A stretch of 64,000 nt of DNA from Streptomyces hokutonensis (GTDB lineage Bacteria; Actinomycetota; Actinomycetes; Streptomycetales; Streptomycetaceae), in assembly GCF_000376565.1 (NCBI RefSeq), contig NZ_BARG01000030.1:124001-188000 (forward strand), written 5' to 3'. A program made the translations under genes and the position numbers. The notes below the pieces were generated by a model. The model made no database searches and was not told the DNA's origin. It was given only the letters and a program-made list of their open reading frames with translations. Numbering within the stretch: position 1 is the stretch's first letter; each line of letters starts with the position of its first letter. Positions 2,825-43,674 of the stretch are shown one piece after another.

Positions 2825-3745
2825 CTAACTGGCAGGCATCGGTGGCCGCGTCTGCAACCTGCCGCCTGCCCGCAGCAGTTGACTCTCTCCGGGGTGACCG
2901 AGTACGGCTTCGAGCAGGCGCGCCGACCGCATGACCGCGTCGAGATCGAGGCCCGTCGACATGCCGCTGTCTTCGAGGAGGTAGACCAGTTCCTCGGTGG
3001 CGATGTTTCCGGTCGCTCCCGGCGCGAAGGGGCAGCCGCCGAAACCGCCGGCTGATGCGTCGATCATGGACACGCCCGCCTCGATCGCCGCCCAGGCACT
3101 GGCCAGGCCCGTCCCTCGGGTGTTGTGCATGTGGACCGCCAGAGGTGTCCCGGGGACAGCAGTCCGTACGGCGTCGATCGTGCTCGTGACCCGCCCCGGG
3201 ACGACCGTCCCGACCGTGTCCCCCAGCCCGATGACGTCGGCGCCGGCGGCCACCGCGCCGGCGGCCAGTTCGACCGTGCGGCCGGCGCTGGTCCTGCCGT
3301 CGAAGGGGCAGTCCCAGGCCGTCGCGAGGATGACCTCGCAACGGCCTTCGGCCTCATGGACGAGTTCCGTGATCCGACCCACGAGGTCCAGCGACTCGGC
3401 CGTGGAACGGCGCACGTTGGCCTGGCTGTGCCCGTCCGCCACCGAGACGACGTACTCGATGGTGCGGAACCCGGCCCTGATCGCCCTCTCCGCACCACTG
3501 ACGGAGGCCACCAGCGCCGACCACTCGATCCCGGGCCACTGCGTCACGAGTTCGGCGACATACTCCGCGTCGGCCATGCTCGGAACGGCCCGGGGCGAGA
3601 CGAACGCGGTGGCCTCGATGCGCTTGGCCCCGGTCGCGACGAGAGACTCCAGCACCCGCGCCTTGTCGGCGCGGTCGAGTGGCTTCTCGAGCTGCAGTCC
3701 GTCGCGTGGCGCGACCTCGCGAATCGAGACAACCGGCTCAGGCAT
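2825..3745 (-). CDS. hydroxymethylglutaryl-CoA lyase family protein
   Basis: This 306-residue TIM-barrel protein belongs to the HMG-CoA lyase (DRE-TIM) family. Visible landmarks are VAPRDGLQ near the start (the metal-binding Arg-Asp pair), HMHNTRGTG (metal-binding histidines), and the family signature GGCPFAPGATGN with its active-site cysteine. Known members cleave 3-hydroxy-3-methylglutaryl-CoA to acetyl-CoA and acetoacetate; close relatives act on other 3-hydroxyacyl-CoA esters. It starts at ATG 3745 behind GGAG and is 9 bases downstream of the VOC gene, so the two form an operon. The neighbouring CoA-transferase could supply its CoA-ester substrate. It is not next to the methylcrotonyl-CoA-carboxylase-like operon at 20-27 kb, so a role in leucine breakdown is possible but not shown. 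Confidence 0.85.
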   Translation of the reverse strand: MPEPVVSIREVAPRDGLQLEKPLDRADKARVLESLVATGAKRIEATAFVSPRAVPSMADAEYVAELVTQWPGIEWSALVASVSGAERAIRAGFRTIEYVVSVADGHSQANVRRSTAESLDLVGRITELVHEAEGRCEVILATAWDCPFDGRTSAGRTVELAAGAVAAGADVIGLGDTVGTVVPGRVTSTIDAVRTAVPGTPLAVHMHNTRGTGLASAWAAIEAGVSMIDASAGGFGGCPFAPGATGNIATEELVYLLEDSGMSTGLDLDAVMRSARLLEAVLGHPGESQLLRAGGRLQTRPPMPAS

Positions 3746-3754
3746 GTCCGACTC

Positions 3755-4318
3755 CTAGTCGCGCGGGGTCCAGTTGTGGAGGAGCTCCGGCCAGTTCGGG
3801 AACCCGAAGGGGCCACCCATGGGGGTGACCTTGTCCTCGGGGACCTCCTCCCACGTCGTGACCTCGAGGTTGTTGCCGTCGAGGTCACGGAAGTAGATGG
3901 AGACCGCCGACATGCCGCGGTGGCTGCGCGGGCCGTCGAACGGGACGCCCTGGTCCTTGAGGTGGTCGGCGAACTGGAGCAGGCCCTCGGCGGTCGTGCC
4001 GAACGCCCAGTGCGGCTGGGGTTCCAGCGTGGTGAGGTCCGGGTAGGACTTGTCGTCCTTCGGCTTGGCGATCTCGAGCAGCGTCGTTCCGACGTGGTAG
4101 AAGATGTGCTGCGGGCGCCCCAGCCTGATGTCCTCGGCGTCCCAGCCTGCCCGGTAGACCTCGACACCGCCGAGGACCTGCTCGACGAACTTGCCGGCCT
4201 TGTGCGGGTCGCGGACCGCCACTCCGACGTGGTCCAGGCCTGTGAGGCCGACCGAGTTCTTCGGAATGTCGAACCGGATTCCGTGGTCCAGGAATGCCTT
4301 GCTGATCTCTGTGGTCAC
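3755..4318 (-). CDS. VOC family (glyoxalase/extradiol dioxygenase fold) protein
   Basis: The 187-residue protein begins at GTG 4318. It carries the paired beta-alpha-beta-beta-beta modules of the vicinal-oxygen-chelate superfamily: a first module LTGLDHVGVAVRDPHKAGKF with the metal-ligand histidine, and a second with ISIYFRDLDGNNLEVTTW, where the GNxLE glutamate is the usual last metal ligand. Members include methylmalonyl-CoA epimerase, glyoxalase I and extradiol ring-cleavage dioxygenases. The length and single-domain form do not decide between these. Its place between a CoA-transferase and an HMG-CoA-lyase-like gene suggests either an epimerase on a CoA ester or a ring-cleaving enzyme in the same pathway. 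It is the first gene of the 9-base-spaced pair with the lyase. Confidence 0.75.
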   Translation of the reverse strand: MTTEISKAFLDHGIRFDIPKNSVGLTGLDHVGVAVRDPHKAGKFVEQVLGGVEVYRAGWDAEDIRLGRPQHIFYHVGTTLLEIAKPKDDKSYPDLTTLEPQPHWAFGTTAEGLLQFADHLKDQGVPFDGPRSHRGMSAVSIYFRDLDGNNLEVTTWEEVPEDKVTPMGGPFGFPNWPELLHNWTPRD

Positions 4319-4433: not shown

Positions 4434-5573
4434 TCAGTCGAGCAGATGGTTGTGCTCACCGAGTCTCGGTGCGCCGCGTTCCACCGCTCCCGGAGTGGCG
4501 GAGAGTTTGGGAACGATGCCCGGCATAGGCACCTCTTCGCTGTCAAGGGAGGGATCGGCGACGCGCAGAATCATGTCGCGGGCGCGGAAATGTTCATCGC
4601 TGTGGATATCGGCCGCGTTGTAGATACGGCTCGCCGGAACCCCGGCCTCATCCAGCAGCAAAAGCGCCTTTTGCGAGTCGAGTGACCTCGCCCATTCGGC
4701 GACTTCCTGATCGAGCTCGGTCTGCCGAAGCGCCCGTTCGTTGTGCGTGGCGTAGGAGTCGGGAAGGAGCCACTCCTCGTGACCGGCCGCGCGGGCGAAT
4801 CGCTCGAAGACCGCATCCTGGTTGGCCCCGATCGCGAGCCATACACCGTCGGATGTCTGGTAGACGTTCGACGGCGCGATGCCCGGCAGGATGGATCCCT
4901 GCGGTTCCCGGACGACGCCCATCAGCTCGTACTCCGCCGCGATCGACTCCATCAGGCTCCACATGGCCTCGTAGAGCGCGACGTCGACCATCTGGCCTGC
5001 GCCCGTCCGGTCCCGCACCCGAAGGGCGAGTTGCGCCCCGACGAATCCGTAGATGCCGGCCATCGTGTCGGCGATCGAGATGCCCACCCGCACGGGAGGC
5101 CGGCCGGGTTCGGCGGTCATGTACCGGAAGCCGCTCATCGCCTCACCGATCAGGCCGAAGCCCGGACGGTGTTTGTAGGGGCCGGTCTGCCCGAACCCCG
5201 AGATCCGGATGAGGATCAGGGCGGGGTTCAGCTCGTGGAGCACGTCCCAGCCCAGACCCCATTTCTCCAGGGTCCCCGGGCGGAAGTTCTCGATGACGAC
5301 GTCCGCATCGCCGAGGAGTCGCTTCAGCTGCTCCTGGCCCTCTGCCGTGGCCAGGTTGATGACAACGGAACTCTTGCCCCTGCCGACATAGGACCAGTGC
5401 AGTCCCACCCCGTTGTAGAGCCGACCCCAGTGCCGCATCGGATCGCCGTTCGGCGGCTCGACCTTGATCACGTCCGCGCCGTGATCGGCAAACATGCGAC
5501 CGCAGACGGGACCTGCTATCAGGTGCCCGAGCTCAACCACCTTCAGCCCGGACAACGAACGACCGTCAGACAT
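4434..5573 (-). CDS. CaiB/BaiF family III CoA-transferase
   Basis: The protein is 379 residues when started at ATG 5573 (MSDGRSLSGLKVVELGH). An upstream extension to 5729 would cross the operator and lacks family similarity. The N-terminal segment GLKVVELGHLIAGPVCGRMF and the KVEPPNGDPMRHW motif are typical of formyl-CoA/carnitine CoA-transferases. Asp169, in IADTMAGIYG, matches the position of the catalytic aspartate of the family, and VDVALYEAM follows. It moves CoA from a donor thioester to a carboxylic acid, usually the activation step of a degradation route. A GTAGT-N-AACGACTAC operator at 5605-5629 sits about 32-56 bases upstream of the start, and a GCGGAC/GTCCGC palindrome lies 130 bases upstream. 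This gene is therefore probably co-regulated with genes at 29-41 kb. Confidence 0.88.
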   Translation of the reverse strand: MSDGRSLSGLKVVELGHLIAGPVCGRMFADHGADVIKVEPPNGDPMRHWGRLYNGVGLHWSYVGRGKSSVVINLATAEGQEQLKRLLGDADVVIENFRPGTLEKWGLGWDVLHELNPALILIRISGFGQTGPYKHRPGFGLIGEAMSGFRYMTAEPGRPPVRVGISIADTMAGIYGFVGAQLALRVRDRTGAGQMVDVALYEAMWSLMESIAAEYELMGVVREPQGSILPGIAPSNVYQTSDGVWLAIGANQDAVFERFARAAGHEEWLLPDSYATHNERALRQTELDQEVAEWARSLDSQKALLLLDEAGVPASRIYNAADIHSDEHFRARDMILRVADPSLDSEEVPMPGIVPKLSATPGAVERGAPRLGEHNHLLD

Positions 5574-5604
5574 GCGGCCTCCACGTGGACATGTGACAAG
5601 CAGT

Positions 5605-5629
5605 GCGTAGTTAGGATACGAACGACTAC
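5605..5629 (-). promoter_or_regulatory. operator type 1, site A (upstream of CoA-transferase)
   Basis: Read on the minus strand it is GTAGTCGTT, C, GTA, TCC, TAACTACGC. It matches site D (32128-32152) at 21 of 25 bases; the differences are the tenth base and the central triplet. The ends GTAGT and ACTAC form an inverted repeat, as expected for a dimeric regulator. It lies 32-56 bases before the CoA-transferase start. Confidence 0.75.
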
Positions 5630-5701
5630 CCGGCAAGGCAAGACCGAGGGTGTCGCGTGGTGCGTGGTCGCGAGTCGGACACGCCTCATCGACACCCACA
5701 A

Positions 5702-5717
5702 GCGGACGACTGTCCGC
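5702..5717. promoter_or_regulatory. operator type 2 (GCGGAC-N4-GTCCGC), copy 1
   Basis: The sequence GCGGACGACTGTCCGC is a perfect 6+6 inverted repeat with a four-base centre. The same arms occur in front of the TetR gene at 28945 (two copies) and ahead of the dienelactone hydrolase gene at 29998, which points to that TetR as the binder. Confidence 0.7.
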
Positions 5718-6116
5718 TGGCCTGGACACTACCTTCCCATCGAGGAGACGGGAAGTGCTGCGCGGCGGGAAATCGGGATGAATGCATCATTCGAGGATGT
5801 AAGCCTCTGTAGGGCGGGCAGGGTGAGCAGGGGTGAGCGATCCATGTGCCCAGGTGGCGGACAGTGATCCGTTTTTTCCATGACCAGGACAGTCGATGGA
5901 AACCGTCACTTCGTCGAGCCATCCTCGGCATCCGACCTGGATGGCCATCACTGACGTGACGAGCGGGTCGCTTCCCCTCGTGGCGGTACGCGCCCTCCGT
6001 CGACGGCGTGCGCGCCGGACTCGAAGCGCGGTGTGGGTTTCAGGGCTGTGGTCGATGTCCGACGAATGAGCATGGTCACGCGATGGGGGCCCTCGACCTG
6101 GACCTCGCGGGACTCT

Positions 6117-6139
6117 ATAGTCGTTAGTCGATTCACGGC
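6117..6139 (+). promoter_or_regulatory. operator type 1, site B (upstream of FAH-family gene)
   Basis: The core AGTCGTTAGTC (6119-6129) is an exact 11-base match to the core of site E at 37290-37300 on the opposite strand. Over the 23-base element it matches site A at about 14 positions, so the second half-site is weak. It ends about 40 bases before the GTG start at 6181. Confidence 0.55.
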
Positions 6140-6180
6140 CATGTGTAATGGCCACGGTGATACCTACGACGGGAGACCCT

Positions 6181-7041
6181 GTGAAACTTGCACTGTTCGA
6201 CGGCGGCCGAATCGGCGTCGTCGAAGACTCCGAGATTGTGGATGTGACTTCCGTGGCGCCGGGCTTCGACTCGGGTTACGCACAGAATCACTGGCTGCGC
6301 CTGTGCGCCGATTTCGAAAAGCTCCGGGAACCGCTGGAGCGGGTGGCCGCGACCGGCCCGCGCATCCCGATCGAACAAGTCCGCCTCGACGCCCCCGTGT
6401 TGAATCCGTCGAAGATCGTGTGTGCCGCGGCGAACTACGACGAACATCTCGCGGAAATGGACCCCATCCTCACTGACGCCCAACGCGCATCCGCGGCCTG
6501 GTTCCTCGCCTTCGATGTCTTCCTGAAGGCGCCCAGCAGCATCATCGGGCCGGGCAGTGACATCGAGCTGCCCGACCTGCCCAATGCCATCCACCATGAG
6601 TGCGAACTCGCGCTGGTGATCGGCAAGACCGCACGGAACGTCGACGCCTCACAAGCCCTCGACCACGTCCTCGGCTACACCATCCTCATCGACGTCACCG
6701 TCCGCGGTGACGGCGACCGCACCCGCCGCAAGTCCTACGACACCTTCTGCCCCGTCGGCCCGTGGCTCGTCACCGCCGACGAGATCGGCGACCCCCAGCA
6801 GCTCGACATCACGCTGAATGTCAACGGCCTCAGCCGGCAGTCGGTGAACACCAGCACGATGAAGGTGCCGATCGACCAGATGATCGCCTACGCCTCCAGC
6901 GTCATGACCCTTCACCCGGGTGACCTCCTGACCACCGGCTCCCCTCCGGGCGTCGGCGCCATCAACCCCGGCGACCGGCTGCACGCGTACATCGAGAAGA
7001 TCGGTGAGATGGAGCTGGGAGTCGTCGGCCCCAAGGGGTGA
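6181..7041 (+). CDS. fumarylacetoacetate hydrolase family protein
   Basis: The start is taken as GTG 6181, with GGGAGA seven bases upstream; an ATG at 6148 also exists in frame. The 286-residue protein has the FAH-family C-terminal fold. PSKIVCAAANYDEHL is the usual entry, HHECELALVIGK carries the two metal-binding glutamates, and ILIDVTVRGDGD carries the metal-binding aspartate. LLTTGSPPGVG ends the active-site region. Members hydrolyse fumarylacetoacetate, fumarylpyruvate or acylpyruvates, or decarboxylate or hydrate related diketo acids. A gentisate-dioxygenase-like bicupin gene lies at 38369 under an operator of the same type, so fumarylpyruvate or acylpyruvate hydrolysis after gentisate-type ring cleavage is a reasonable guess. 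The guess rests on co-regulation, not on substrate residues. Confidence 0.85.
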   Translation: MKLALFDGGRIGVVEDSEIVDVTSVAPGFDSGYAQNHWLRLCADFEKLREPLERVAATGPRIPIEQVRLDAPVLNPSKIVCAAANYDEHLAEMDPILTDAQRASAAWFLAFDVFLKAPSSIIGPGSDIELPDLPNAIHHECELALVIGKTARNVDASQALDHVLGYTILIDVTVRGDGDRTRRKSYDTFCPVGPWLVTADEIGDPQQLDITLNVNGLSRQSVNTSTMKVPIDQMIAYASSVMTLHPGDLLTTGSPPGVGAINPGDRLHAYIEKIGEMELGVVGPKG

Positions 7042-29526: not shown

Positions 29527-29997
29527 TGATCCGGAGGTCGACGGCCGAGTGGTCAGCCCTGCCGAGCGGACAGGCGTCTGTCCGCTTGCTTCCGCCGTGC
29601 ATGGCGGACGCCGAGCAGTACCAAGGGCCCGCCTTCCGGGTGCCAGGCGAGTTGGAGCCCCATCCCGCGAACCGCATGGGACTGGACTGGTCGGTATGCC
29701 TCTCTCGATGGACGGCATCGACATCGGCTGCTCACTCCCCCTTGCCAGAGGGATGGCTGTCCCATACGGTCAGTCCTGGCGGACGGCTGTCCGCTTAAGG
29801 TCTGGTATTGCCTGTACAGCAGGTGTGACCGGCGCGCCGAATCGGTGACTTTCACCGCCCACAGAGGCACAAGGCCCCGCGCGCCAGGCGGCACAAGCAT
29901 CGGATGACGGTCTTCGCCGCTACTGCTGCGCCGGTGTTCATCCCTCAGAAGTGACACCACCGCGACCAGGCCGCTCTCGCACAAAATGGAGTTAGCC
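29527..29997. promoter_or_regulatory. 471-base gap with two further GCGGAC/GTCCGC elements
   Basis: No gene is supported here. A perfect inverted repeat GCGGACAG-N4-CTGTCCGC sits at 29566-29585; its GCGGAC/GTCCGC arms are spaced eight bases apart instead of four. A standard copy, GCGGACGGCTGTCCGC, is at 29779-29794, about 200 bases before the dienelactone hydrolase start. A half-site GCGGAC also occurs near 29605. Confidence 0.65.
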
Positions 29998-30762
29998 GTG
30001 ACCCCAGTCGCAGTCCGTGGAACGACCCTGATCCTGCCCACCCAGGACGGAGGCGCCGATGCGTACCTCGCGCGCCCCGACGACGACGCCCCGCACCCGG
30101 CCGTCCTCTTCTACACGGACATCATGGGCGTGCGCCCAAGCATGCAGAAGATGGCGGACCGCCTGGCGGCGGCCGGCTACACGGTCCTGGTACCCAACGT
30201 CTTCTACCGCAGCAGCCCGGCACCCGTCGTGGAGATGCCCGACGTCGTCACCGACGACATCCTCTGGGACGTCGTCGGCAGAGCCGTGCCGGTGGCACAG
30301 TCGCTGACTCCGAAGGACGCGATGCGTGACGCGCTCGCCTGGCTCGACTGGCTGGAGGTCAGTGAGTTCACCACCGGCGGCTCTGTGGGCATCACGGGTT
30401 ACTGCAACGGGGGCATGCTGTGCCTGCGTACGGCGGGTTCCTACCCGGACCGGGTCGCCGCCGCGGCCATCATCCACGGCTCCCACCTGATCACCGACGC
30501 GCCGGACAGCCCCCACCTGGCTGCCGAGCACATCAAGGGCGAGGTCTTCTTCGCCAACGGCGACAAGGACACGATCAACCCGCCCGAAGAGGTCGAGCGC
30601 TTCAACGCGGTCCTCTCCGCGGCCGGCGTCCGCCACCGCAGCGAAATGTACGCCGACGCCCAACACGGCTTCTGCTCAAGCGACCTCCTACCCCTCTACA
30701 ACAAGGAGGCGGACGAACGCCACTGGGCGGGCCTGCTGGACCTGTTCGGCCGCACCCTCTGA
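29998..30762 (+). CDS. dienelactone hydrolase family protein
   Basis: The start is taken as GTG 29998, with GGAG six bases upstream; ATG 29986 overlaps that ribosome site. The 254-residue alpha/beta hydrolase has the dienelactone hydrolase catalytic set: Cys136 in GYCNGG, Asp in NGDKD (about 189-191) and His223 in AQHGF. A Cys nucleophile instead of Ser is typical of this family. Known members hydrolyse dienelactones formed from halocatechols, but many act on other lactones or esters. A type 2 operator lies upstream, so control by the preceding TetR is likely. A further ring-cleavage-lactone step in the nearby aromatic-type pathway is possible. Confidence 0.87.
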   Translation: MTPVAVRGTTLILPTQDGGADAYLARPDDDAPHPAVLFYTDIMGVRPSMQKMADRLAAAGYTVLVPNVFYRSSPAPVVEMPDVVTDDILWDVVGRAVPVAQSLTPKDAMRDALAWLDWLEVSEFTTGGSVGITGYCNGGMLCLRTAGSYPDRVAAAAIIHGSHLITDAPDSPHLAAEHIKGEVFFANGDKDTINPPEEVERFNAVLSAAGVRHRSEMYADAQHGFCSSDLLPLYNKEADERHWAGLLDLFGRTL

Positions 30763-33036: not shown

Positions 33037-36000
33037 GTGGTCACGTTCACACTCGAAGATCGTTACCTGCAAGAAGACGGAGAGGTCTATCTCACCGGCA
33101 TCCAGGCTCTCGTCCGCGTCCTGCTCGACCGGGCCCGGCATGATCGCCGTAAGGGGAGGGAGACCTCCGCGTTCGTCTCCGGCTATGAGGGGTCCCCGCT
33201 GGGCGGCTTCGACCTGGAGCTGGCGCGGCGCGGTCGCCTTCTCGACGAGTACCGGGTCGTGCATCAGCCCGGCCTGAACGAGGAACTGGGCCTGACCTCG
33301 GTGATGGGCAGCCAGCTGACGGCACGACTCGGCGCGCGCACCGATGGTGTGACCGGGCTCTGGTACGGCAAGGCCCCGGGCCTGGACCGGGCGACCGACG
33401 CCCTGCGCCACGCCAACCTGGTCGGCGCGGATCCGCGCGGAGGCGCGGTGGCCCTCGTGGGTGACGATCCGAACGCCAAGTCCTCCACCGTCCCATGCGC
33501 GTCGGAACGTGCCCTGGCCGATCTCGCGGTCCCCGTGCTCTACCCCGCCGATGTCCAGGACATCGTCGACTTCGGCCTGCACGCGGTGGAGCTTTCCAGG
33601 GCGAGCGGCCTGTGGTCCTCGATGAAGCTGGTCACCAACGTGGCCGACACGGCCGGAACGGCCCTGGTCAGCAGCGAGTGGGCGCCGCCGGAGCTGCCCG
33701 ACTCCGCCTACCGTCATCAGCCCAGTGCCCGACTGCTCGGCAAGGAGCTGGCCGGCCTGGAGGAGAGCCTGTTCCGGACCAGGCTGCCGCTCGCGATGGA
33801 GTACATCCGGGCGAGCGGGCTCAACAGGATCAGCGGCAGCGGCAGCGGTGCCCGGGTGGGCATCGTGGCGGCGGGCAAGACCTACCTGGACGTCCGGCAG
33901 GCCCTGAGCAGCCTCGGGCTCGGCGAGGAGGATCTCGGCCGGTTCGGGATCCGGCTGCTGAAGCTCGGCGCGGTCTACCCACTGGAACCCCAGATCGTCC
34001 GGGAGTTCGCCGCCGGCCTGGACGAGATCGTGGTGGTCGAGGAGAAGCGGGCGTTCATCGAGTCCGCGGTCAAGGAGGTCCTCTACGGCCGTCATGACGC
34101 CCCCGTGGTGCGGGGGAAGGAGTTCTTCGAAGAGTCCGGCGAGCTGGACCCGGACAAGGTCGCCAGGGGCCTGCGCTCCCGGCTCGCGCACTACGCCGAG
34201 CTCGCCCCGGCCCCCGCCCCCCGAGGCCGTATAGATCTCCCGCTGCTGAGCCGAACCCCCTACTTCTGCTCGGGCTGTCCGCACAACTCCTCGACCAAGG
34301 TCCCCGAGGGGACGGTCGTCGGTGCCGGTATCGGCTGCCACACCATGGCGTTGTTCATGGAACCCGAAGCCGTCGGCGACGTGATCGGGCTGACCCAGAT
34401 GGGTGGCGAGGGCACCCAGTGGATCGGGATGGCGCCCTTCGTCGACGCCGAGCACTTCGTGCAGAACATCGGCGACGGCACCTTCACCCACTCCGGCAGC
34501 CTGGCTGTGCGGGCGGCCGTCGCCGCCGGGGTGAACATCACCTACAAGCTCCTGTACAACTCCGCGGTCGCCATGACCGGGGGACAGGACGCGGTGGGCG
34601 GTCTGCCGGTGCACAAGGTCGCTGAACTGCTGCTCCTCGAAGGCGCGGCGAAGGTGGTCATCACCAGCGACGCGCCCCGCCGTATCAGGGCCGTCAAGGG
34701 GGTCGAGGTCCGCCACCGGGACGAACTGCTGAGTACCCAGGAGGAGTTGGCGAAGGTCCCGGGCGTCACCGTGCTCATCCATGAGCAGGAGTGCGCGACG
34801 GAGAAGCGCCGCAAGTGGCGCCGGGGCCTCGAACCTGCCCCCACCGCCAAGGTCTTCATCAACGAGCGTGTCTGCGAGGGTTGCGGTGACTGTGGCGTCA
34901 AGTCCAACTGTCTGTCCGTGCAGCCGGTGGAGACCGAGTTCGGCCGCAAGACCGCGATCCACCAGTCGTCGTGCAACGTCGACCACGCCTGCCTCGCCGG
35001 CGACTGTCCGTCGTTCATGACGGTGACGCCCACCGGCCGACGCGCACACCGGGTCTTCGCCGAGCTGGCGGCGGACGCCTTCACCGACCCCGCCGTCACG
35101 GGCGACTTCACCGTGCGGATCACCGGCGTCGGCGGCACCGGCGTGGTCACCACCACGCAGATCCTGGCCACCGCCGCGTTCCTGGACGGCCGACAGGTTC
35201 GGACCCTCGACCAGACGGGGCTGGCCCAGAAGGGCGGCGCCGTCGTCTCCGACCTCAAGATCACCTCGGCGTCCGTCGAGCAGGCGGCGAAACTCGCGGC
35301 CGGCGAATGCGACCTCTACCTCGTCTGCGACTCCCTCGTCGGTGCCGACCCGGAAAACCTGCGTGTGGCCCACGCGGCCCGGACGACCGCCGTGGTGTCC
35401 ACCACCGAGGTCCCCACCGGGAGCATGATCGTCGACCCGAACGTCTCGTTCCCGAGCGCGTCGTCCCTCAGAACCGCCATCGACGCCGCGACCCGGCACC
35501 AGTACTACCTCGACGCGCGCGGACTGGCCGAAGCGTTCTTCGACGACGACCAGTTCGCCAACATCCTCCAGCTGGGCGCCGCCTACCAGGCCGGGGCCGT
35601 CGGCATCACGGCCGCGAGCATCGAGCGCGCCATCGAGCTCAACGGCACGGCGGTGGCCGCCAATCTCCAGGCGTTCCGGCGCGGCCGCCAGGCCGTCGCC
35701 GATCCCGCAGGCCTGCTGGCGGAACTGTCCGCCACGCCGCCGGCCAACGAAGCCGCCGAGCCCGCCGGTTCCCCGGGCCTTCGGTCCCTGGTCGCAGCTG
35801 AACCCGGTAGCGAACTCGCGCGGCTGCTCGACCTGCGGATTCCCGACCTGGTCGCGTACCAGAGCGAGGCCTACGCCGCGCAGTACGCCCGCTTCGTCGA
35901 ACAGATACGCCGCGAGGCGCCCGACGTCGCCGAAGCGGTCGCCCGGAACCTGTACAAACTCATGGCCTACAAGGACGAGTACGAGGTCGCACGGCTCAGC

Positions 36001-36459
36001 CTGGATCCGCGTCTGCAGGCCGAGATCGACGCGCAGTTCGGTGTCGGCTCCCGAGCGACCTACCACCTCCACCCGCCCATCCTGCGTGCGCTCGGCATCG
36101 ACAGAAAGATCAAGCTCGGCCCGTGGTTCCGCCCGGCGTTCCGCGCGCTGCGCGCCCTGCGCACGGTCCGCGGCAAGTGGCTGGACCCCTTCGGCCACCA
36201 CCCCGTCCGCCGCACGGAACGCGCACTCATCGCCGAATACCGCGAGGCGATCAGCCGCGCGGTGCGGATCGCGCCCGGCGACCCGCTCGTCCGTGAACTC
36301 GCCGAACTGCCGGACATGGTTCGCGGCTACGAGGACGTCAAGCTCGCCAACGTGGCCCGGTACCGAGCCAGGCAGGCCGAAATCCTGGCCGCACTGGAGT
36401 CCGATTCGGCGGAGCACTCGTCCTCCGGCCTGGCGGACACGTTCAGCACCGGACAGTGA
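33037..36459 (+). CDS. indolepyruvate ferredoxin oxidoreductase family protein, fused subunits
   Basis: The 1140-residue protein starts at GTG 33037 behind GAGGAAG. Domain order is a pyrimidine-binding transketolase-like domain (VSGYEGSPLGGFDLEL), a middle domain, and a TPP-binding domain (CSGCPHNSSTKVPEG and VAMTGGQDAVGG). Next come a ferredoxin region with CEGCGDCGVKSNC and the later CNVDHACLAGDC, and a gamma domain (RITGVGGTGVVTTTQILA, QTGLAQKGGAVVSD). The C-terminal 250 residues are specific to the fused bacterial type. The family oxidatively decarboxylates aryl or branched 2-oxo acids to acyl-CoA and reduces ferredoxin. The 4Fe-4S motif is complete. With an LUD protein and gentisate-type genes near, a 2-oxo acid formed in the pathway is the likely substrate, but this is inference. 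Confidence 0.88.
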   Translation: MVTFTLEDRYLQEDGEVYLTGIQALVRVLLDRARHDRRKGRETSAFVSGYEGSPLGGFDLELARRGRLLDEYRVVHQPGLNEELGLTSVMGSQLTARLGARTDGVTGLWYGKAPGLDRATDALRHANLVGADPRGGAVALVGDDPNAKSSTVPCASERALADLAVPVLYPADVQDIVDFGLHAVELSRASGLWSSMKLVTNVADTAGTALVSSEWAPPELPDSAYRHQPSARLLGKELAGLEESLFRTRLPLAMEYIRASGLNRISGSGSGARVGIVAAGKTYLDVRQALSSLGLGEEDLGRFGIRLLKLGAVYPLEPQIVREFAAGLDEIVVVEEKRAFIESAVKEVLYGRHDAPVVRGKEFFEESGELDPDKVARGLRSRLAHYAELAPAPAPRGRIDLPLLSRTPYFCSGCPHNSSTKVPEGTVVGAGIGCHTMALFMEPEAVGDVIGLTQMGGEGTQWIGMAPFVDAEHFVQNIGDGTFTHSGSLAVRAAVAAGVNITYKLLYNSAVAMTGGQDAVGGLPVHKVAELLLLEGAAKVVITSDAPRRIRAVKGVEVRHRDELLSTQEELAKVPGVTVLIHEQECATEKRRKWRRGLEPAPTAKVFINERVCEGCGDCGVKSNCLSVQPVETEFGRKTAIHQSSCNVDHACLAGDCPSFMTVTPTGRRAHRVFAELAADAFTDPAVTGDFTVRITGVGGTGVVTTTQILATAAFLDGRQVRTLDQTGLAQKGGAVVSDLKITSASVEQAAKLAAGECDLYLVCDSLVGADPENLRVAHAARTTAVVSTTEVPTGSMIVDPNVSFPSASSLRTAIDAATRHQYYLDARGLAEAFFDDDQFANILQLGAAYQAGAVGITAASIERAIELNGTAVAANLQAFRRGRQAVADPAGLLAELSATPPANEAAEPAGSPGLRSLVAAEPGSELARLLDLRIPDLVAYQSEAYAAQYARFVEQIRREAPDVAEAVARNLYKLMAYKDEYEVARLSLDPRLQAEIDAQFGVGSRATYHLHPPILRALGIDRKIKLGPWFRPAFRALRALRTVRGKWLDPFGHHPVRRTERALIAEYREAISRAVRIAPGDPLVRELAELPDMVRGYEDVKLANVARYRARQAEILAALESDSAEHSSSGLADTFSTGQ

Positions 36460-36577: not shown

Positions 36578-37213
36578 TCAGTAGCCGAGGTCCTCGTCCA
36601 CGAGGATCAGCTTGATCCGGTCGGGCAGCGGTTCGTGTTCGACCAGCAGGAGCTTTCCGGCGAAGGCCGGCTGGCCCATGTCTCTGCGCATGCGCTGGTC
36701 CTCCAGCGGAAAGACGTGTGTGCGCACACGGTCGATGGCCTCGGCCAGTGTGGGGGTGATCTTGTTGCGGCCGACCACCCATATGACCTTTCCCGCGCCG
36801 TAGGCGTAGCCGCCGACGCGGGTGCCGCCCGCGTCGAGACAGACGGCCTCACCGGTAGCGGCCAGCGCGTTCACGCTGCCCACCATGTAATCGGCGGTAG
36901 TTGCCCAACGACGTAGCTCCACGCGCTTCTCGGGCTCCTTCGTGGCGTAGATCTCGGCCCGGCGCCAGCGCCAGTGCCGAGAGGACTCCAGTTCGGCCAT
37001 GAGACCGATCTCGCGGAGTGTCACCGAGCTGCCGTTGGTGACGTCCGAGCCGGCCGGGATCAGTTCACGAATCCTCTGCAGTGCCTCTTCGCGATCGGCG
37101 ACCACCTCGGGGTTGAACCCTCGCCGGGCGCAGTGGGCGGCCACGGACTCCAGGTCGTGGCCGGCCGCGACGCGACGGTCTTTGTGCGCAGAGGCGGATT
37201 CTGGCGTCGGCAT
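36578..37213 (-). CDS. LUD domain protein (DUF162, lactate-utilisation type)
   Basis: ATG 37213 (MPTPESASAHKDR) lies about ten bases after GAGAGGG and gives 211 residues. The LUD core is visible as GSDVTNGSSVTLREIGLM, YMVGSVNALAATGEAVCLDA and KVIWVVGRNKITPTLAEAIDRVR. LUD proteins occur in the LutABC/LldEFG lactate oxidation complex (LutC) and as stand-alone proteins of unclear function. No LutA or LutB iron-sulfur partner is present here. It is divergent from the TAXI-type gene, with operator site E in the shared promoter region, and convergent with the ferredoxin-oxidoreductase-like gene. A role in the electron path of that enzyme is possible. Confidence 0.85.
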   Translation of the reverse strand: MPTPESASAHKDRRVAAGHDLESVAAHCARRGFNPEVVADREEALQRIRELIPAGSDVTNGSSVTLREIGLMAELESSRHWRWRRAEIYATKEPEKRVELRRWATTADYMVGSVNALAATGEAVCLDAGGTRVGGYAYGAGKVIWVVGRNKITPTLAEAIDRVRTHVFPLEDQRMRRDMGQPAFAGKLLLVEHEPLPDRIKLILVDEDLGY

Positions 37214-37279
37214 GGGGTGCACACCCTCTCGTTACCCGAAACACGTGTGGCGGGCTGTAGCCACGCGCTGCGGCTCATA

Positions 37280-37302
37280 GTAGTGTACTGACTAACGACT
37301 TA
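37280..37302 (-). promoter_or_regulatory. operator type 1, site E (between LUD and TAXI-type genes)
   Basis: The plus strand runs from GTAGT (37280) through eight bases to TAACGACTTA (37302). The spacing between half-sites is the same as in site A. Core GACTAACGACT is an exact 11-base match to site B. It ends 15 bases before ATG 37318, overlapping the likely promoter of the TAXI-type gene. Confidence 0.65.
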
Positions 37303-37317
37303 AGGGGATGATCATTG

Positions 37318-38316
37318 ATGAGTTCTCCTATCGAGGTACGGCTGCTCACCTCGGGCGCCAACTGGCTGAGGGTCGGGAGCATGATCGGGCTCGGCCTCAC
37401 TGGCTACAACAGCCCGTTGCCCGAGGGTTCGTCGGTCTCGATCCACACCATCGACACCGGCAAATCGTGTATGCGCGGGATGCAGCTGGTGGACGACGGC
37501 ACCTACGACTTCGGCATGACGTCGCCGCCCTGGCTGGCCAAGGCCGCGGCGGACGGTGTCACCGCCTTCGGGCTGACCGACAGGCCGCTCAACCTGCGCG
37601 CGGTCTGCGTCTTCCCCCACTTCGACCAGCTCGCCCTGGCGGTCCGTGCGGATCTGGGGATCACCTCGCTGCGGCAGATCTTCGAGGAGAAGATCCCGTT
37701 GCGCATCTCGACCGGGCCGACGCACCTGGGCCACCCGCTGGGCTGGGTGATGGACCTGCTGTACGACGAGTACGGGGTGAGCGTCGAGGACATCGAGGGC
37801 TGGGGAGGCACCGTCTCCTCCGGCGAACGGCAGCTGAACTTCCTCGAAGTCACCGACGGCGGTCTGACGGGTCGCGCGGCCCTGCTCGCGGACGGAAAGC
37901 TCGACGCGGTCTTCGACGAGGGCATCATGTCGAAGTCGTGGCTGGAGCTGGCGGAGGCCGTGCCCATGACCTTCCTGCCGGTCGAGGACGAGGTGCTGTC
38001 GTCCCTGGAGGCGAAGTACGGCGCCCGCCGGACCGTGCTCCCCGCGGGACGGCTGCCGGGCATCGGGAGTGACGTCCCGACGATCGACTTCGCGGGCTGG
38101 ATGCTCTACTGCCGCGCAGACGTCGACGACGAACTCGTCTTACTGGCGTTGCAGGGCCTGGAGCAGCAACTGCCCCAGATGGAGACCCTCTTCGAGTCCC
38201 AGGGCGCCCACAAGGGCCTGAGCGAGCCCGTCGACCTGGCGAAGACCTGGCAGAACGCCGAGCTCCCGCTGCACCCCGGCGCCGAGCGGTTCTACCGCTC
38301 CCGGGGCTACATGTGA
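37318..38316 (+). CDS. TAXI-family binding-protein-like protein without signal peptide
   Basis: ATG 37318 lies after AGGGGA and gives 332 residues. The fold resembles the TAXI branch of TRAP transporter binding proteins: LRVGSMIGLGLTGYNSPLPE, a mid-protein LAVRADLGITSLRQIFEEKIP, then LGWVMDLLYDEYGVSVEDIEGWGG. TAXI proteins are normally secreted and feed a TRAP permease. Here there is no signal peptide or lipobox and no TRAP permease gene. It may be a cytoplasmic ligand-binding protein or enzyme. An in-frame TTA leucine codon lies at 38140-38142, so expression may need the bldA tRNA if this is a Streptomyces. The bicupin gene follows 52 bases downstream. Confidence 0.7.
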   Translation: MSSPIEVRLLTSGANWLRVGSMIGLGLTGYNSPLPEGSSVSIHTIDTGKSCMRGMQLVDDGTYDFGMTSPPWLAKAAADGVTAFGLTDRPLNLRAVCVFPHFDQLALAVRADLGITSLRQIFEEKIPLRISTGPTHLGHPLGWVMDLLYDEYGVSVEDIEGWGGTVSSGERQLNFLEVTDGGLTGRAALLADGKLDAVFDEGIMSKSWLELAEAVPMTFLPVEDEVLSSLEAKYGARRTVLPAGRLPGIGSDVPTIDFAGWMLYCRADVDDELVLLALQGLEQQLPQMETLFESQGAHKGLSEPVDLAKTWQNAELPLHPGAERFYRSRGYM

Positions 38317-38368: not shown

Positions 38369-39430
38369 ATGAGTATCACCGAAGCCACACCCGAGACCCA
38401 GGCCGCGGAGCGCACCGCCTTCGTCGACGAGGTGCACGCCTTCCACGCGAGCCCGGTCTTCATCACCCAGCCGGGATTCATGCCGGCGGAGCCCTCTTCG
38501 GCCATGGAGCCCTATCTGTGGCGGTGGGCGGACATCCGTCCGGCCATGCTGAGGGCAGCCGAGCTGCTCCCGGTGGGGGCGGACGGGGCGGACCGCCGGG
38601 TGCTCAACCTGATCAACCCCGGCATGGAGCCGAAGATCGGGACCACGCACACGCTCACCGCGTCGATCCAGATGGTGCTGCCCGGCGAGGTCGCGGACGC
38701 GCACCGGCACACCATCAACGCGCTCCGACTGATCCTGGAGGGCCGCGGCGCGTCGACCACCGTCGACGGCGAGATGTGCGAGCTCGAACCCGGCGACGTG
38801 GTGCTCACCTCCGGCTGGCGCTGGCACGACCACCGCAACGACGGGGACGAGCCCGTGATCTGGCTGGACGGGCTGGATCTGCCGCTCACGAGGTCGCTGG
38901 AAGGCATCTTCTACGAGGAGCTGGCCGAGGGCGCGCAGCCGGTCGTGAGCACCGGCGACTCGATCAGGCGCTACGGGGTCGGCCAGCTCCTGCCGACCTG
39001 GACGCGCTGGGAGGGAATGGACTCCCCGCTGTTCAACTACAAGTGGGCCGACACCCGCCGCGCGCTCGACGCCCTGCGCGGCGAGGACGGCGACCCCTTC
39101 GACGGGGTCTCCCTGGAGTTCCGCAACCCCACGACCGGCGGCTCAGTCGGACCCACCATGTCGTGCGGCGTCAACCTGCTGCGTCCCGGGCTGCGAGCCG
39201 AGGAGCACCGGCACACCTCCTCGACCGTCTACCACGTCATCGAGGGCCAGGGCGTGACCGTCATCGACGGCACCGAATTCGCGTGGACCAAGGGCGACAC
39301 GTTCGCCGTCCCCACCTGGGCCTGGCACCGGCACGCCAACACCTCCCAGGCCCAGGAGGCGGTGCTGTTCAACTTCAGCGACAAGCCCCTCATGGACAAG
39401 ATCGGTCTCTACCGGGAGCAGGCCCGGTAA
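38369..39430 (+). CDS. bicupin, gentisate 1,2-dioxygenase-like
   Basis: The 353-residue protein has two cupin domains of the gentisate/1-hydroxy-2-naphthoate dioxygenase family. The first has AHRHTINALRLILEGRG followed by the GDVVLTSGWRWHDH motif, which carries the Fe(II)-binding histidines. The second has EEHRHTSSTVYHVIEGQG and GDTFAVPTWAWHRHAN. Gentisate dioxygenase cleaves the ring between C1 and C2 to maleylpyruvate. The second cupin keeps its HRH motif, which is often degenerate in such enzymes. A FAH-family hydrolase under the same operator type at 6181 would fit the next steps. Substrates such as salicylate or aminohydroxybenzoates remain possible. Confidence 0.82.
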   Translation: MSITEATPETQAAERTAFVDEVHAFHASPVFITQPGFMPAEPSSAMEPYLWRWADIRPAMLRAAELLPVGADGADRRVLNLINPGMEPKIGTTHTLTASIQMVLPGEVADAHRHTINALRLILEGRGASTTVDGEMCELEPGDVVLTSGWRWHDHRNDGDEPVIWLDGLDLPLTRSLEGIFYEELAEGAQPVVSTGDSIRRYGVGQLLPTWTRWEGMDSPLFNYKWADTRRALDALRGEDGDPFDGVSLEFRNPTTGGSVGPTMSCGVNLLRPGLRAEEHRHTSSTVYHVIEGQGVTVIDGTEFAWTKGDTFAVPTWAWHRHANTSQAQEAVLFNFSDKPLMDKIGLYREQAR

Positions 39431-39865: not shown

Positions 39866-41182
39866 ATGTCCCTTTCCGCCCGCACCCCCGTCCCCCTGCC
39901 ACGGACACGCTGGACGATCCTCATTCCCATCGTCTTCGTGACCTACGGGCTGCACTACCTCGACCGCACCAACACCGCACAGCTGTTCCCGCACGTCGAC
40001 GACGACATTCCCATGTCAGACACCGCGACCGGGCTCGCGCAGGGGGCGGCCTTCATCGGCTACATGCTCCTTCAGCTACCCGCCGTACGGGCGGCCCACC
40101 GCTTCGGGCCGCGCAGGGTCGTGTTCTGGTGCATGATCCTCTGGGGCCTCGCCGCGACGGGCACCGGCCTGGTGCAGAACATGCCCCAGCTGGTCGCCAT
40201 GCGGTTCCTGCTCGGACTCGCCGAGGGGCCGCTGATCCCCCTCGTCATCCTCCTGCTCAGCAGATACTTCGTGTCCGCCGAGCGGGCCCGGTCAGCGGCC
40301 TGGTTCCTGCTGGTACTGCCGATTACCCAGGTGCTGGGCGCCCCGCTCACCGGGCTGCTGCTGGAACACCTGAACTGGCGCACGGTCTTCCTGATCGAGG
40401 GCCTGCCCCCGCTGGTGTGGGCGTTCGTGTGGCTCTTCGTCGCGGCGGACACCCCCGACCGGGCCCGCTGGCTGAAGCGTTCCGAGGGCGCGGCAGTCAC
40501 CGAACGCGTTGCCGCGGAGGAGGCGGTCAAGGCCGGCGAGGACCGGATGCGCCTCGCCCTGCTGGTCCGGCAGCGTCTCGTCTGGGTGCTCGCGGCGCTG
40601 TACTTCGCCGGCACCGGCGGATCGGTGGGACTGATCCTGTGGCTGCCCACCATCATCGAGGACCTCTCTCCGCACGCGACACCCCTTGAGGTCGGGACGA
40701 TGGCCGCTCTGCCCTCGCTGGTCGGGGCGATCGCCGTGGTGCTGGCCGCACGGTGGAGCGACGCCCACGACAACCGGAGAACCCCGATGCTCATGGGGTT
40801 CGGCATGGCAACAACGGCCCTGCTCGTCGGCACCCAGCTGCCCGACACCCTCTGGGCTCATATGACGGTGCTCGCAGTAGCGGGCGGCGCGGTCATCAGC
40901 ACCGGAGGCGTCCTGGCGTCGATCCCGGGCGCGGCACTTCCCCCGGCAGCGGCCGCCGGGGCCCTGGCGGTGGGGAACAGCTTCGGAGCGATCGGCCAGT
41001 TCCTCGGCGCACTTCTGATCGGAGCGCTCCGTGATGCCACGGACGGCTCGCGGACGGTGAGCTACGCAGTGATCGCCGCTATGTGGGGTGTGGGGCTCGC
41101 CGCGTCGGCACTGATCCCGGAACCGGCACGCGCCGCGGCGTCCAAAGCCAAGGCCTCCGGCCCGCAAGGGAGCCTGGCGTGA
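39866..41182 (+). CDS. MFS transporter, anion:cation symporter (phthalate permease-like) family
   Basis: The 438-residue protein has 12 predicted membrane segments. The N-terminal YGLHYLDRTNTAQLFPHVDDD resembles the start of ACS-family permeases, which usually have LDRxNxG/A there. RFGPRRVVFWCMILWGLAAT is the loop 2-3 motif, and RFLLGLAEGPLIPLVILL marks helix 4. The family imports organic anions such as phthalate, hexuronates, 4-hydroxyphenylacetate and tartrate with protons. It lies after the bicupin gene in a catabolic block, so it probably imports the pathway substrate. The central loop is long and charged (about residues 200-230), as usual. Confidence 0.88.
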   Translation: MSLSARTPVPLPRTRWTILIPIVFVTYGLHYLDRTNTAQLFPHVDDDIPMSDTATGLAQGAAFIGYMLLQLPAVRAAHRFGPRRVVFWCMILWGLAATGTGLVQNMPQLVAMRFLLGLAEGPLIPLVILLLSRYFVSAERARSAAWFLLVLPITQVLGAPLTGLLLEHLNWRTVFLIEGLPPLVWAFVWLFVAADTPDRARWLKRSEGAAVTERVAAEEAVKAGEDRMRLALLVRQRLVWVLAALYFAGTGGSVGLILWLPTIIEDLSPHATPLEVGTMAALPSLVGAIAVVLAARWSDAHDNRRTPMLMGFGMATTALLVGTQLPDTLWAHMTVLAVAGGAVISTGGVLASIPGAALPPAAAAGALAVGNSFGAIGQFLGALLIGALRDATDGSRTVSYAVIAAMWGVGLAASALIPEPARAAASKAKASGPQGSLA

Positions 41183-41361
41183 TGGTGCCGTGCAGGCGGT
41201 CAGCCGTCAGCGAAGTCGGCTGCGCCAGTGGCGTCGCGGTTCGGCCCGACAACCATGTCACCTGGTGCAGCACGGACGCCGCCCGCTCTGCCCGCTGACG
41301 AGACGCCGCAGACCATGCAGCTGCAGACCATACAAACGTTTCTGGAAGGAGGACCGTGGTC

Positions 41362-43674
41362 ATGACGACTCATGCGATCAGGATGGATCTGGAGGCACTG
41401 GCGGCCGTTGAACGTCGGGTGCTGTGGCTGTCCACGGCCATCATCGACCACGCCAACCGGGTCCGTCCGAACCCCACCGGGCTGAAGGTGGGCGGGCACC
41501 AGGCGTCCAGTGCCTCGATGACGTCGATCATGACGGCGCTGTGGTTCCACGAGCTGGCCGCTGAGGACAGGGTGTCGGTGAAGCCGCATGCCTCGCCGGT
41601 GCTGCACGCGATCAACTACCTGCTGGGCGAGCTGGACGTGTCATATCTGCCCACGCTGCGGTCGTTCGGCGGGTTGCAGTCGTATCCGTCGCGGTCGAAG
41701 GACCCCGATCCGGTGGACTATTCGACAGGCTCGGTCGGCATCGGCGCCACGGCCCCGATTTGGGGCGGCATCGCCCGCCGGTATGTGGAGGACCACTTCG
41801 GCGGGGCCGGCTCAGGTCGGCAGTACTCGCTCCTCGGGGACGCCGAGCTGGACGAGGGCGCGATCTGGGAGGCCGTGCAGGATCCGATGGTTCCGTACCT
41901 GGGCGAGGTCGTGTGGATCGTCGACCTCAACCGGCAGTCTCTGGACCGGGTCGTGCCCGGGATGTCGGCGGAAAAGCTGCAGGGCATGTTCGCGGCGGCC
42001 GGCTGGCAGGTGCTCACGCTGAAGTACGGGCGGTTGCTGGAGGAGTTGTTCGCGCGGCCCGGCGGCGATGCGCTGCGCACCCGCATCGACGCCATGGGCA
42101 ACCCGGAGTACCAGCGGCTGCTGCGGTGCAGCGCTGGTGAGCTGCGCGAAAGGCTGCCGGGGACCGGGTCCACGGCCGACCCGATCGCCAAACTGATCGC
42201 CGACCTGGACGACACCACGCTGCTGTCCGCGCTGCGCAACCTGGGCGGGCACGACCTGGAAGCGCTGCTCGGGGCATATGGGGCGATCGACGACTCCCGG
42301 CCGACAGTGGTCTTCGCCTATACGGTGAAGGGCTACGCGCTGCCGGTCGAGGGCCACCCGCAGAACCACTCCTCGCTGCTGTCAGGTGAGCAGATGGAGG
42401 AGCTGGCGAATCGGCTGGGGAGCAACCTGGACGACCCGTGGGCGGGCTTCCCCGCAGGGTCGACGGAGGCACAGCTGTGCGCGGCGGCGGCAGCGCGGCT
42501 ACGACGCCCGATCATCCCGCATCACGCTTCGCCTGAAATCCCGTCGGACCTCGGGCGTCCGGCGCCAACGGGCAACGGCAACACGCAGCAGGCGCTGGGT
42601 CGTACGCTGCTGGATCTGACCCGCAGGGCGCCTGAGGCGGCCGGGCGGATCGTGACGGTCGCGCCCGACGTCAGTTCATCGACCAATCTGGGCGGTTGGC
42701 TGAACAAGGTCGGTGTGTGGTCCTACACCGAACACACAGATTGGTTCGCGGACGATGCCGAGACGATTCTGCACTGGCGGGAGAAGCCCACCGGGCAGCA
42801 CGTGGAGCTGGGCATCGCGGAGACCAACCTGGTCGGTGTGCTGGGGGAGCTGGGAGCGACGTGGTCGAGGTGGGGGCAGCCACTGCTGCCCATCGGAGTG
42901 GTGTACGACCCGTTCGTCAACCGGGCCCTGGAACCCTGGTCGTTCGGGATCTACGCGGGCGGCCAGTCGATCCTTGTCGGTACGCCGTCCGGGGTCACGC
43001 TGGCGCCGGAGGGTGGCGCACACCAGTCGATCACCACGCCGTCCCTGGGTATCGAGCAGCCAGGATGTGTGTCCTACGAGCCGGCCTTCGCCCAGGACAC
43101 AGAGTGGACCCTGCTCGCCGCGCTCGGCAACCTCGGCAAGGAGGGCGGTAGCTCGGCGTATCTGCGGCTGTCCACCCGATCCGTCGACCAGACCCTGGCA
43201 GCAGTGCCCACCGACGTGGCGGCCCGCGAGCGACGACGGCGTCAGGTGGTCGCGGGGGCTTACCCGCTGCGGCGTACGCAGAACCCGACGGTCACCATCG
43301 CCGCGATGGGCGCGATGATCCCCGAAGCTCTGGCAGCCGCCCATCGGCTCACCGCCCTCGGTCACAGCGCCGACGTCATCTGCGTCACCAGCCCAGATCT
43401 GCTGTTCCGGGCGGTCCAGGGGCGTCGCGGTCTGTCGGATGACCCGACATGGATCCTCGACCAGGTCTTGCCCGCGGACCGTGCAACGCCGCTGGTCACT
43501 CTCCTCGACGGCCATCCACACACCCTCGCTTTCCTGGCCACCGTCAACAGGGTGTCCCTCACCGCACTGGGCGTGACACATTTCGGCCAGTCCGGCGCCC
43601 TGGACGAGGTGTATCGCTACCACGGCATCGATACCGACAGCGTCGTCCAGGCTGCCCTCGACCTTGTCGACTGA
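41362..43674 (+). CDS. transketolase/pyruvate dehydrogenase E1 (AceE-like) family protein
   Basis: ATG 41362 lies nine bases after AAGGAGG; GTG 41356 is too close to it. The 770-residue protein resembles homodimeric E1 of pyruvate dehydrogenase but is about 130 residues shorter than typical AceE. The TPP motif is GDAELDEGAIWEA followed by VDLNRQSLD (about residues 158-195), equivalent to GDG-N. The PHASPVLHAINYLLG and HSSLLSGEQMEEL segments are also E1-like. The C-terminal pyrimidine and transketolase-C domains are complete. No E2 or E3 gene adjoins it. It may use a 2-oxo acid such as pyruvate or an aldehyde acceptor in the same catabolic route as the upstream genes, but this is not shown. 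Confidence 0.85.
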   Translation: MTTHAIRMDLEALAAVERRVLWLSTAIIDHANRVRPNPTGLKVGGHQASSASMTSIMTALWFHELAAEDRVSVKPHASPVLHAINYLLGELDVSYLPTLRSFGGLQSYPSRSKDPDPVDYSTGSVGIGATAPIWGGIARRYVEDHFGGAGSGRQYSLLGDAELDEGAIWEAVQDPMVPYLGEVVWIVDLNRQSLDRVVPGMSAEKLQGMFAAAGWQVLTLKYGRLLEELFARPGGDALRTRIDAMGNPEYQRLLRCSAGELRERLPGTGSTADPIAKLIADLDDTTLLSALRNLGGHDLEALLGAYGAIDDSRPTVVFAYTVKGYALPVEGHPQNHSSLLSGEQMEELANRLGSNLDDPWAGFPAGSTEAQLCAAAAARLRRPIIPHHASPEIPSDLGRPAPTGNGNTQQALGRTLLDLTRRAPEAAGRIVTVAPDVSSSTNLGGWLNKVGVWSYTEHTDWFADDAETILHWREKPTGQHVELGIAETNLVGVLGELGATWSRWGQPLLPIGVVYDPFVNRALEPWSFGIYAGGQSILVGTPSGVTLAPEGGAHQSITTPSLGIEQPGCVSYEPAFAQDTEWTLLAALGNLGKEGGSSAYLRLSTRSVDQTLAAVPTDVAARERRRRQVVAGAYPLRRTQNPTVTIAAMGAMIPEALAAAHRLTALGHSADVICVTSPDLLFRAVQGRRGLSDDPTWILDQVLPADRATPLVTLLDGHPHTLAFLATVNRVSLTALGVTHFGQSGALDEVYRYHGIDTDSVVQAALDLVD

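Follow-up and report, generated by a model that had tools for sequence, protein, structure and literature searches.

What would a TAXI-type binding protein do inside the cell, with neither an export signal nor a TRAP permease? This question is raised by a gene of Streptomyces hokutonensis at positions 37318–38316 (+ strand) of the window, the whole stretch of 64,000 nucleotides analysed here. The gene encodes a TAXI-like protein of 332 aa that is predicted from its sequence to be cytoplasmic and is referred to below as cTAXI (type A). The original prediction left its role open between a sensor, a chaperone and an enzyme. The clade to which it belongs, the gene clusters in which this clade is found and a set of new invariant residues would favour an enzyme.

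A TAXI-like gene without an export signal

The cTAXI ORF is exact, with the ATG at 37318 and a stop codon that ends at 38316. It is a real gene, with a coding-type GC3 of 0.93, and it is under purifying selection (dN/dS of 0.086 against its S. blattellae ortholog). Pfam family NMT1_3 (PF16868) matches the protein at 4.1e-20 (73 bits; cut-off 27), and the seven PDB chains among the sequence matches listed are named as TAXI subunits, an 'immunogenic protein' or a GluR0-like binding core. The predicted TAXI-like nature of the protein is thus borne out at the sequence level. NCBIfam TRAP_TAXI also matches (4e-16) but its 58.8 bits fall under the cut-off of 84.35, as do the scores of the four other clade members tested. 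An unrelated known enzyme, structural similarity to which the original prediction had named as contrary evidence, was not found in PDB sequence searches with the protein and the clade profile. A viral-contig scan yielded no relative.

The N-terminus had been described as lacking a signal sequence, and this description holds. Its peak 12-residue mean hydropathy is 1.23 versus 1.62–2.61 in all ten permease-linked TAXIs, and a signal-like stretch is absent from 17 of 17 clade rows. A secretion signal could still have come from a corrected upstream start, and it was looked for. An in-frame TGA (37309–37311) ends 6 nt 5' of the ATG, and the sole alternative start is a TTG at 37315 that adds one residue. 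As the TGA closes the frame, a signal peptide hidden upstream is excluded.

No TRAP permease at the locus or in the genome

That no permease genes adjoin cTAXI was confirmed both at the locus and genome-wide. No match to DctM (PF06808) was obtained anywhere in the genome (11.8 Mb, 99.9% complete), and the same search gave matches in seven of the 14 genomes of a control panel. A TRAP permease adjoins none of the 16 cTAXI loci versus all ten permease-type control loci, with ~8–12 kb of flank searched at most cTAXI loci and 4 kb at eight of the controls, so that the cTAXI side was searched longer. At L011, L016 and L029 one of the two flanks was shorter, and that of L016 was later extended. DctM is absent from six of the eight actinomycete genomes with cTAXI, and its distance from cTAXI is ~96 kb in G253 and some 0.86 Mb in G360. 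A distant TRAP permease as a partner was rejected for the six genomes from which DctM is missing. In Aminobacter, a DctPQM system with a DctP of its own comes after the cTAXI cluster. In Phaeobacter, an ordinary TAXI directly adjoins a fused TRAP permease, and both TAXI types are found on one plasmid. These plasmid-borne TRAPs were likewise rejected as partners, as they have their own binding proteins.

An MFS transporter is encoded at 39866–41182 (+; MFS_1 5.3e-53, with aromatic-acid MFS subfamily matches under cut-off) and likely serves as the importer instead of a TRAP permease. We consider it very unlikely that cTAXI itself is still a transport protein that uses an unusual export route or docks to an MFS or ABC permease. 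MFS genes are present in the window and close to the Aminobacter cTAXI, ORFs at L028 were read by eye as an ABC transporter, and TAXI-GltS shows that TAXIs can switch membrane partner, according to the available part of its description (PMC12344293). However, the clade lacks a signal-like stretch throughout, the window frame is closed upstream and the nearby TRAPs possess their own binding proteins.

A clade of signal-less proteins, rare among actinomycetes

S. justiciae and S. blattellae carry orthologs of cTAXI (99.7% and 95%, respectively), and gene order is kept in both. S. blattellae has a second copy elsewhere (85%). This paralog (L011 1300–2298) shows a dN/dS of ~0.33 against both orthologs, four times the 0.086 of the ortholog pair, and, with its different neighbourhood, suggests relaxed or altered function after duplication. 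Further relatives (42–43%) lie inside a catabolic cluster on two Aminobacter plasmids. This cluster contains wrbA, VOC, cTAXI, CaiB, HMG-CoA lyase, RraA and VOC in its first part, and DLH, MFS, an extradiol-like VOC, FAH, IclR and an MhpA-type hydroxylase in its second part. Plasmid pP128_c of Phaeobacter gallaeciensis carries two relatives around MhpA, FAH, VOC, IclR and DLH, not far from a gentisate operon, and Hymenobacter psoromatis has one relative. The hosts of the clade are thus actinomycetes, Alphaproteobacteria and one Hymenobacter, where the proteobacterial search covered plasmids. The plasmid searches matched 24, 76 and 43 records, and the 15 match regions examined comprised ten controls and five that are clade members or the truncated Cupriavidus remnant.

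The cTAXI type is uncommon among actinomycetes. Searches with the window protein found matches in six of 392 Streptomyces genomes (E <= 1e-20) and in two of 396 genomes sampled from across the phylum (E <= 1e-15), own genome included in both cases, and a type-B query (L030) gave seven of 392 and two of 396, respectively. Several genomes contain two or three copies. L028 has a tandem pair of type A and type B, L029 has two cTAXIs, and the Streptomyces chromosome G244 has three (L047, L048 and L049) within 65 kb, of which the L048 copy is degenerate with an unclear start. On the Cupriavidus plasmid pMTS3, an N-terminal cTAXI fragment follows wrbA (L018 8001–8171; 51% over 57 aa), with the remainder missing. 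These two sequences, one truncated and one with no clear start, would fit the view that cTAXI is what remains of a TAXI gene that is decaying and no longer functional. For the window gene this is extremely improbable, given its low dN/dS against the S. blattellae ortholog and residues that are invariant across phyla.

In a maximum-likelihood tree of 28 proteins, 16 signal-less proteins fall on one side of a single branch (support 100/99), the comparison rows being ten permease-linked and two kinase-linked TAXIs. The signal-less state amounts to a single change in all 200 bootstrap trees. L048 was dropped from the tree and from the residue counts, L018 was left out of all counts, and the near copies L009 and L013 were counted as loci but not placed in the tree, in which L015 is a long-branched row. 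The permease-type row nearest to the clade, with modest support (85/93), is Natrinema L050, which adjoins UbiD/UbiX genes and a fused permease.

The genome of S. hokutonensis also contains two stronger TAXI matches, L001 (1486–2646, −) and L002 (1372–2364, +), each beside a HAMP/HisKA histidine kinase. No permease was found beside either of them, and the N-terminus of L002 looks signal-like. They are probably secreted, sensor-linked TAXIs. L001 was trimmed for the tree, and as its ORF is over-long its hydropathy value is void. PF16868 matches as strong as these two occur in seven of the eight genomes examined.

Operon, neighbouring genes and promoter

The upstream LUD-domain gene (36578–37222, −; PF02589 3.7e-26; kept in L009 and L010) is divergent from cTAXI, and 53 bp downstream begins a gentisate 1,2-dioxygenase-like bicupin (38369–39430, +; TIGR02272 3.1e-100, 335 bits, under the cut-off of 442). 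cTAXI thus heads its unit, as predicted, and the bicupin is probably in the same operon. A second group comprises a fumarylacetoacetate hydrolase (FAH) family protein (6148–7041, +; PF01557 1.1e-58), a CaiB-type CoA transferase (4434–5729, −; PF02515 5.5e-123), a VOC/glyoxalase family protein (3755–4318, −; PF00903 9.9e-14) and an HMG-CoA-lyase-like protein (2825–3745, −; PF00682 3.1e-40). These four genes lie 30–34 kb from cTAXI in the window versus 6–9.5 kb in S. blattellae, where the FAH gene is 6.2 kb away. Three of the products resemble proteins of the Aminobacter cluster: CaiB is 48% identical to the product of the gene adjoining the Aminobacter cTAXI, the VOC protein is 36% identical to Aminobacter VOC1, itself 58 bp from its cTAXI, and the HMG-CoA-lyase-like protein is 40% identical to an Aminobacter cTAXI neighbour. 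A dienelactone hydrolase (DLH) family protein is encoded at 29986–30762 (+; PF01738 1.8e-39). In several of the compared genomes, gene calls were ORF-based and GC3-ranked, without a gene finder.

The unit is flanked by a fused indolepyruvate ferredoxin oxidoreductase-type enzyme and a stand-alone AceE/transketolase-like protein (33037–36459 and 41356–43674). An mdeB-type gene near the cTAXI cluster on the Aminobacter plasmid is 25% identical to the latter.

The cTAXI promoter contains a GACTAACGACT box at 37290–37300 (+), and a second box (6119–6129, −) precedes FAH, in the divergent promoter region of FAH and CaiB. No further copy occurs in the window at <=1 mismatch, and both of these are perfect, with 0.40 expected and at least two found in 6 of 100 shuffles. 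Both boxes are kept in S. blattellae. The original prediction placed cTAXI directly under what it termed a 'type 1 operator'. There is indeed a box at this position, but as two copies arise in 6 of 100 shuffles, its reading as a promoter element is suggestive only. An idealised palindrome was also tried and occurred no more often than by chance (7 times, with 6.94 expected), and the 19-base cTAXI promoter sequence is unique in the window.

The position of cTAXI at the head of a unit and the shared promoter box are also what one would expect of an intracellular sensor, which would bind a substrate or intermediate and signal to an IclR, TrmB or AraC type regulator of the catabolic genes. IclR genes are found near several cTAXIs, and the probably secreted TAXIs that adjoin histidine kinases in the same genome indicate that TAXIs may serve sensing. 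We nevertheless regard a sensor as unlikely. A domain search found no DNA-binding or signalling domain fused to cTAXI, the nearby regulators vary from locus to locus, and clusters with two or three copies, as well as tandem pairs (L028, L029, L016 and G244), fit successive reaction steps better.

Association with aromatic catabolism

cTAXI genes are members of catabolic clusters of the gentisate/extradiol type. tblastn searches with marker genes, over the stretches examined at the 16 cTAXI loci, found FAH at 12, DLH at ten, an MhpA-type hydroxylase at seven, a gentisate-dioxygenase-like cupin at seven and a Pht5-like gene at two, the FAH of the window being among the genes 30–34 kb from cTAXI. 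None of the markers was found by tblastn in the flanks of two of the 16 loci, L015 and L049.

A TIGR02272 search of the eight cTAXI genomes gave matches in four, with nine full-length genes, and none in the other four. Seven of the nine lie <=10 kb from cTAXI where 0.045 are expected (Poisson P ~7e-14); as this family was picked after its sighting in the window, the gene of the window's own genome is not independent, while the other six are. A partial tenth match in the own genome was left out. No TIGR02272-matched protein reaches the curated cut-off, and 'gentisate-dioxygenase-like' is the furthest name that this allows. At four loci, a protein with two cupins that no family matches above cut-off is encoded 1.1–1.6 kb from the cTAXI genes (L016 5711–6673; homologs in L028, L030 and L031). 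It may be an undescribed ring-cleaving dioxygenase.

Two actinomycete cTAXI clusters contain Pht5-like genes (L029 10514–11524 and L032 5212–6204). The L032 protein matches PDB 9jp7, a 4,5-dihydroxyphthalate decarboxylase, at 2.1e-68, and the L029 protein shares 45% identity with it. Among eight genomes, Pht5-like relatives of at least 46% are found solely at the cTAXI loci of G253 and G631, and G360 has a relative of 33% away from cTAXI.

In a cluster of Sagittula MA-2, gentisate dioxygenase, an FAH-type hydrolase, HMG-CoA lyase and CoA transferase are likewise combined, and the TAXI there is an ordinary one that has its permease, as far as the available part of that report goes (PMC11705938). 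An o-phthalate TAXI-TRAP is reported in EbN1 and proposed in Pseudomonas PTH10 in the available sections of two papers (PMC13040137, PMC6362003); we take the o-phthalate TAXI of Aromatoleum aromaticum EbN1 to be our L017. As some TAXI-TRAPs import aromatic acids, going by these same sections, aromatic acids are plausible as ancestral cTAXI ligands.

As a member of a binding-protein family in an operon with a ring-cleaving enzyme, cTAXI might also act as a holder or chaperone, binding a labile or toxic intermediate in the cytoplasm until it is passed on. This is decidedly unlikely in our judgement, as a holder would be required in near-stoichiometric amounts and searches of open-licence PMC papers yielded no precedent.

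Clade-specific residues

We compared 16 cTAXIs (L048 dropped) with 12 ordinary TAXIs. Residues P70, D103, E201, W208 and L227 are invariant in all 16 cTAXIs, and the same letters occur in 1, 1, 0, 1 and 2 of the ordinary TAXIs, respectively. Asp at position 257 is found in 15 of 16 cTAXIs versus none of the 12 ordinary TAXIs, and H319 of the C-terminal signature is common to both groups. Profile alignment to TtGluBP places E201 at Thr187, and S69 at Gln78, beside the inserted P70. In VcGluP, the ligand contacts include M201 and Q93 (the equivalents of these TtGluBP positions) as well as H123 and E125, according to the available part of the structural report (PMC11574862). The P[HQ]xD segment (window protein 100–103) falls in the loop of VcGluP E125, with an alignment uncertainty of one residue, by which D103 could be shifted. 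W16 (by eye) and S69 align at VcGluP Y45 and Q93, the latter of which varies among ordinary TAXIs (PMC11574862, same part). An AlphaFold2 model of cTAXI built from three sequences was unusable (pLDDT 31.9), and the pocket positions rest on sequence alignment. They suggest that the cTAXI ligand pocket has been rebuilt, although the invariant acidic residues could serve binding alone.

A proposed enzymatic role

With moderate confidence, we read cTAXI as a TAXI-derived cytoplasmic enzyme that was recruited into aromatic ring-cleavage catabolism and lost its export and transport partner. In the cytoplasm, the two lobes of the binding-protein fold would close around either a hydroxylated aromatic carboxylate or an acid formed by ring cleavage, and the clade-specific acids D103 and E201, perhaps with D257, would carry out acid/base chemistry. 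The likeliest single reaction would be a cofactor-free decarboxylation feeding the neighbouring dioxygenase, and the next choice an isomerisation or hydration of the ring-cleavage product. The enzymes of the window that would then receive the product are, in turn, the gentisate-dioxygenase-like cupin (38369), the FAH hydrolase (6148), and the CoA transferase (4434) and HMG-CoA-lyase-like enzyme (2825). A cofactor-free acid/base enzyme seems the best reading because of the analogy with Pht5 and because the invariant acids appear to lie in or near the cleft. From sequence, we infer this cleft position and the location of the protein in the cytoplasm in vivo, as well as the catalysis and the substrate.

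We give an even chance to the broader view that cTAXI represents an undescribed enzyme family, the first from TAXI binding proteins, of decarboxylases, isomerases or hydratases in gentisate-type or extradiol aromatic catabolism. The family would span Actinomycetota, Alphaproteobacteria and Bacteroidota. A published description of a cytoplasmic TAXI clade was not found in open-licence PMC papers, which is a weak negative. The Aminobacter and Phaeobacter members are annotated as 'TAXI family TRAP transporter solute-binding subunit', which is very probably not their function. If the clade is enzymatic, it would fill an unassigned step of aromatic degradation clusters and offer another lineage in which to study the evolution of enzymes from binding proteins.

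Comparison with known systems

Cytoplasmic enzymes with a binding-protein fold include the desulfinase DszB, MqnA/MqnD and THI5. No sequence relation between these and cTAXI was shown here, and in our sequence searches DszB was a weak match of the Pht5-like protein only. The Pht5-type 4,5-dihydroxyphthalate decarboxylase (PDB 9jp7) is an enzyme of aromatic catabolism that is encoded inside two cTAXI clusters, and its family presumably has a binding-protein-like fold. It could be a functional model for cTAXI, but the two belong to different sequence families. Membership of cTAXI in the Pht5 family was rejected, as 9jp7 is not among the PDB matches of the protein or the clade profile and the profile match is weak (hhalign probability 34%).

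Cyclohexadienyl dehydratase, which evolved from a solute-binding protein, is a precedent for the transition from binding protein to enzyme, but it arose from another lineage (an arginine binder) and catalyses another reaction than that proposed for cTAXI, as described in the available part of PMC7683729. The TAXI-GltS of Bordetella pertussis is, like cTAXI, a TAXI without a TRAP permease; unlike cTAXI, it is a secreted lipoprotein with a membrane partner, according to the same part of PMC12344293 as above. The TAXI-TRAP binding proteins VcGluP and TtGluBP share a Pfam family and the C-terminal PLHPGA signature with cTAXI, and the solved TAXIs align with the clade from approximately profile position 36 to the C-terminus. 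cTAXI differs from them in having no signal peptide and no permease, in missing the TRAP_TAXI cut-off, and in its new invariant residues P70, D103, E201, W208 and, nearly, D257.
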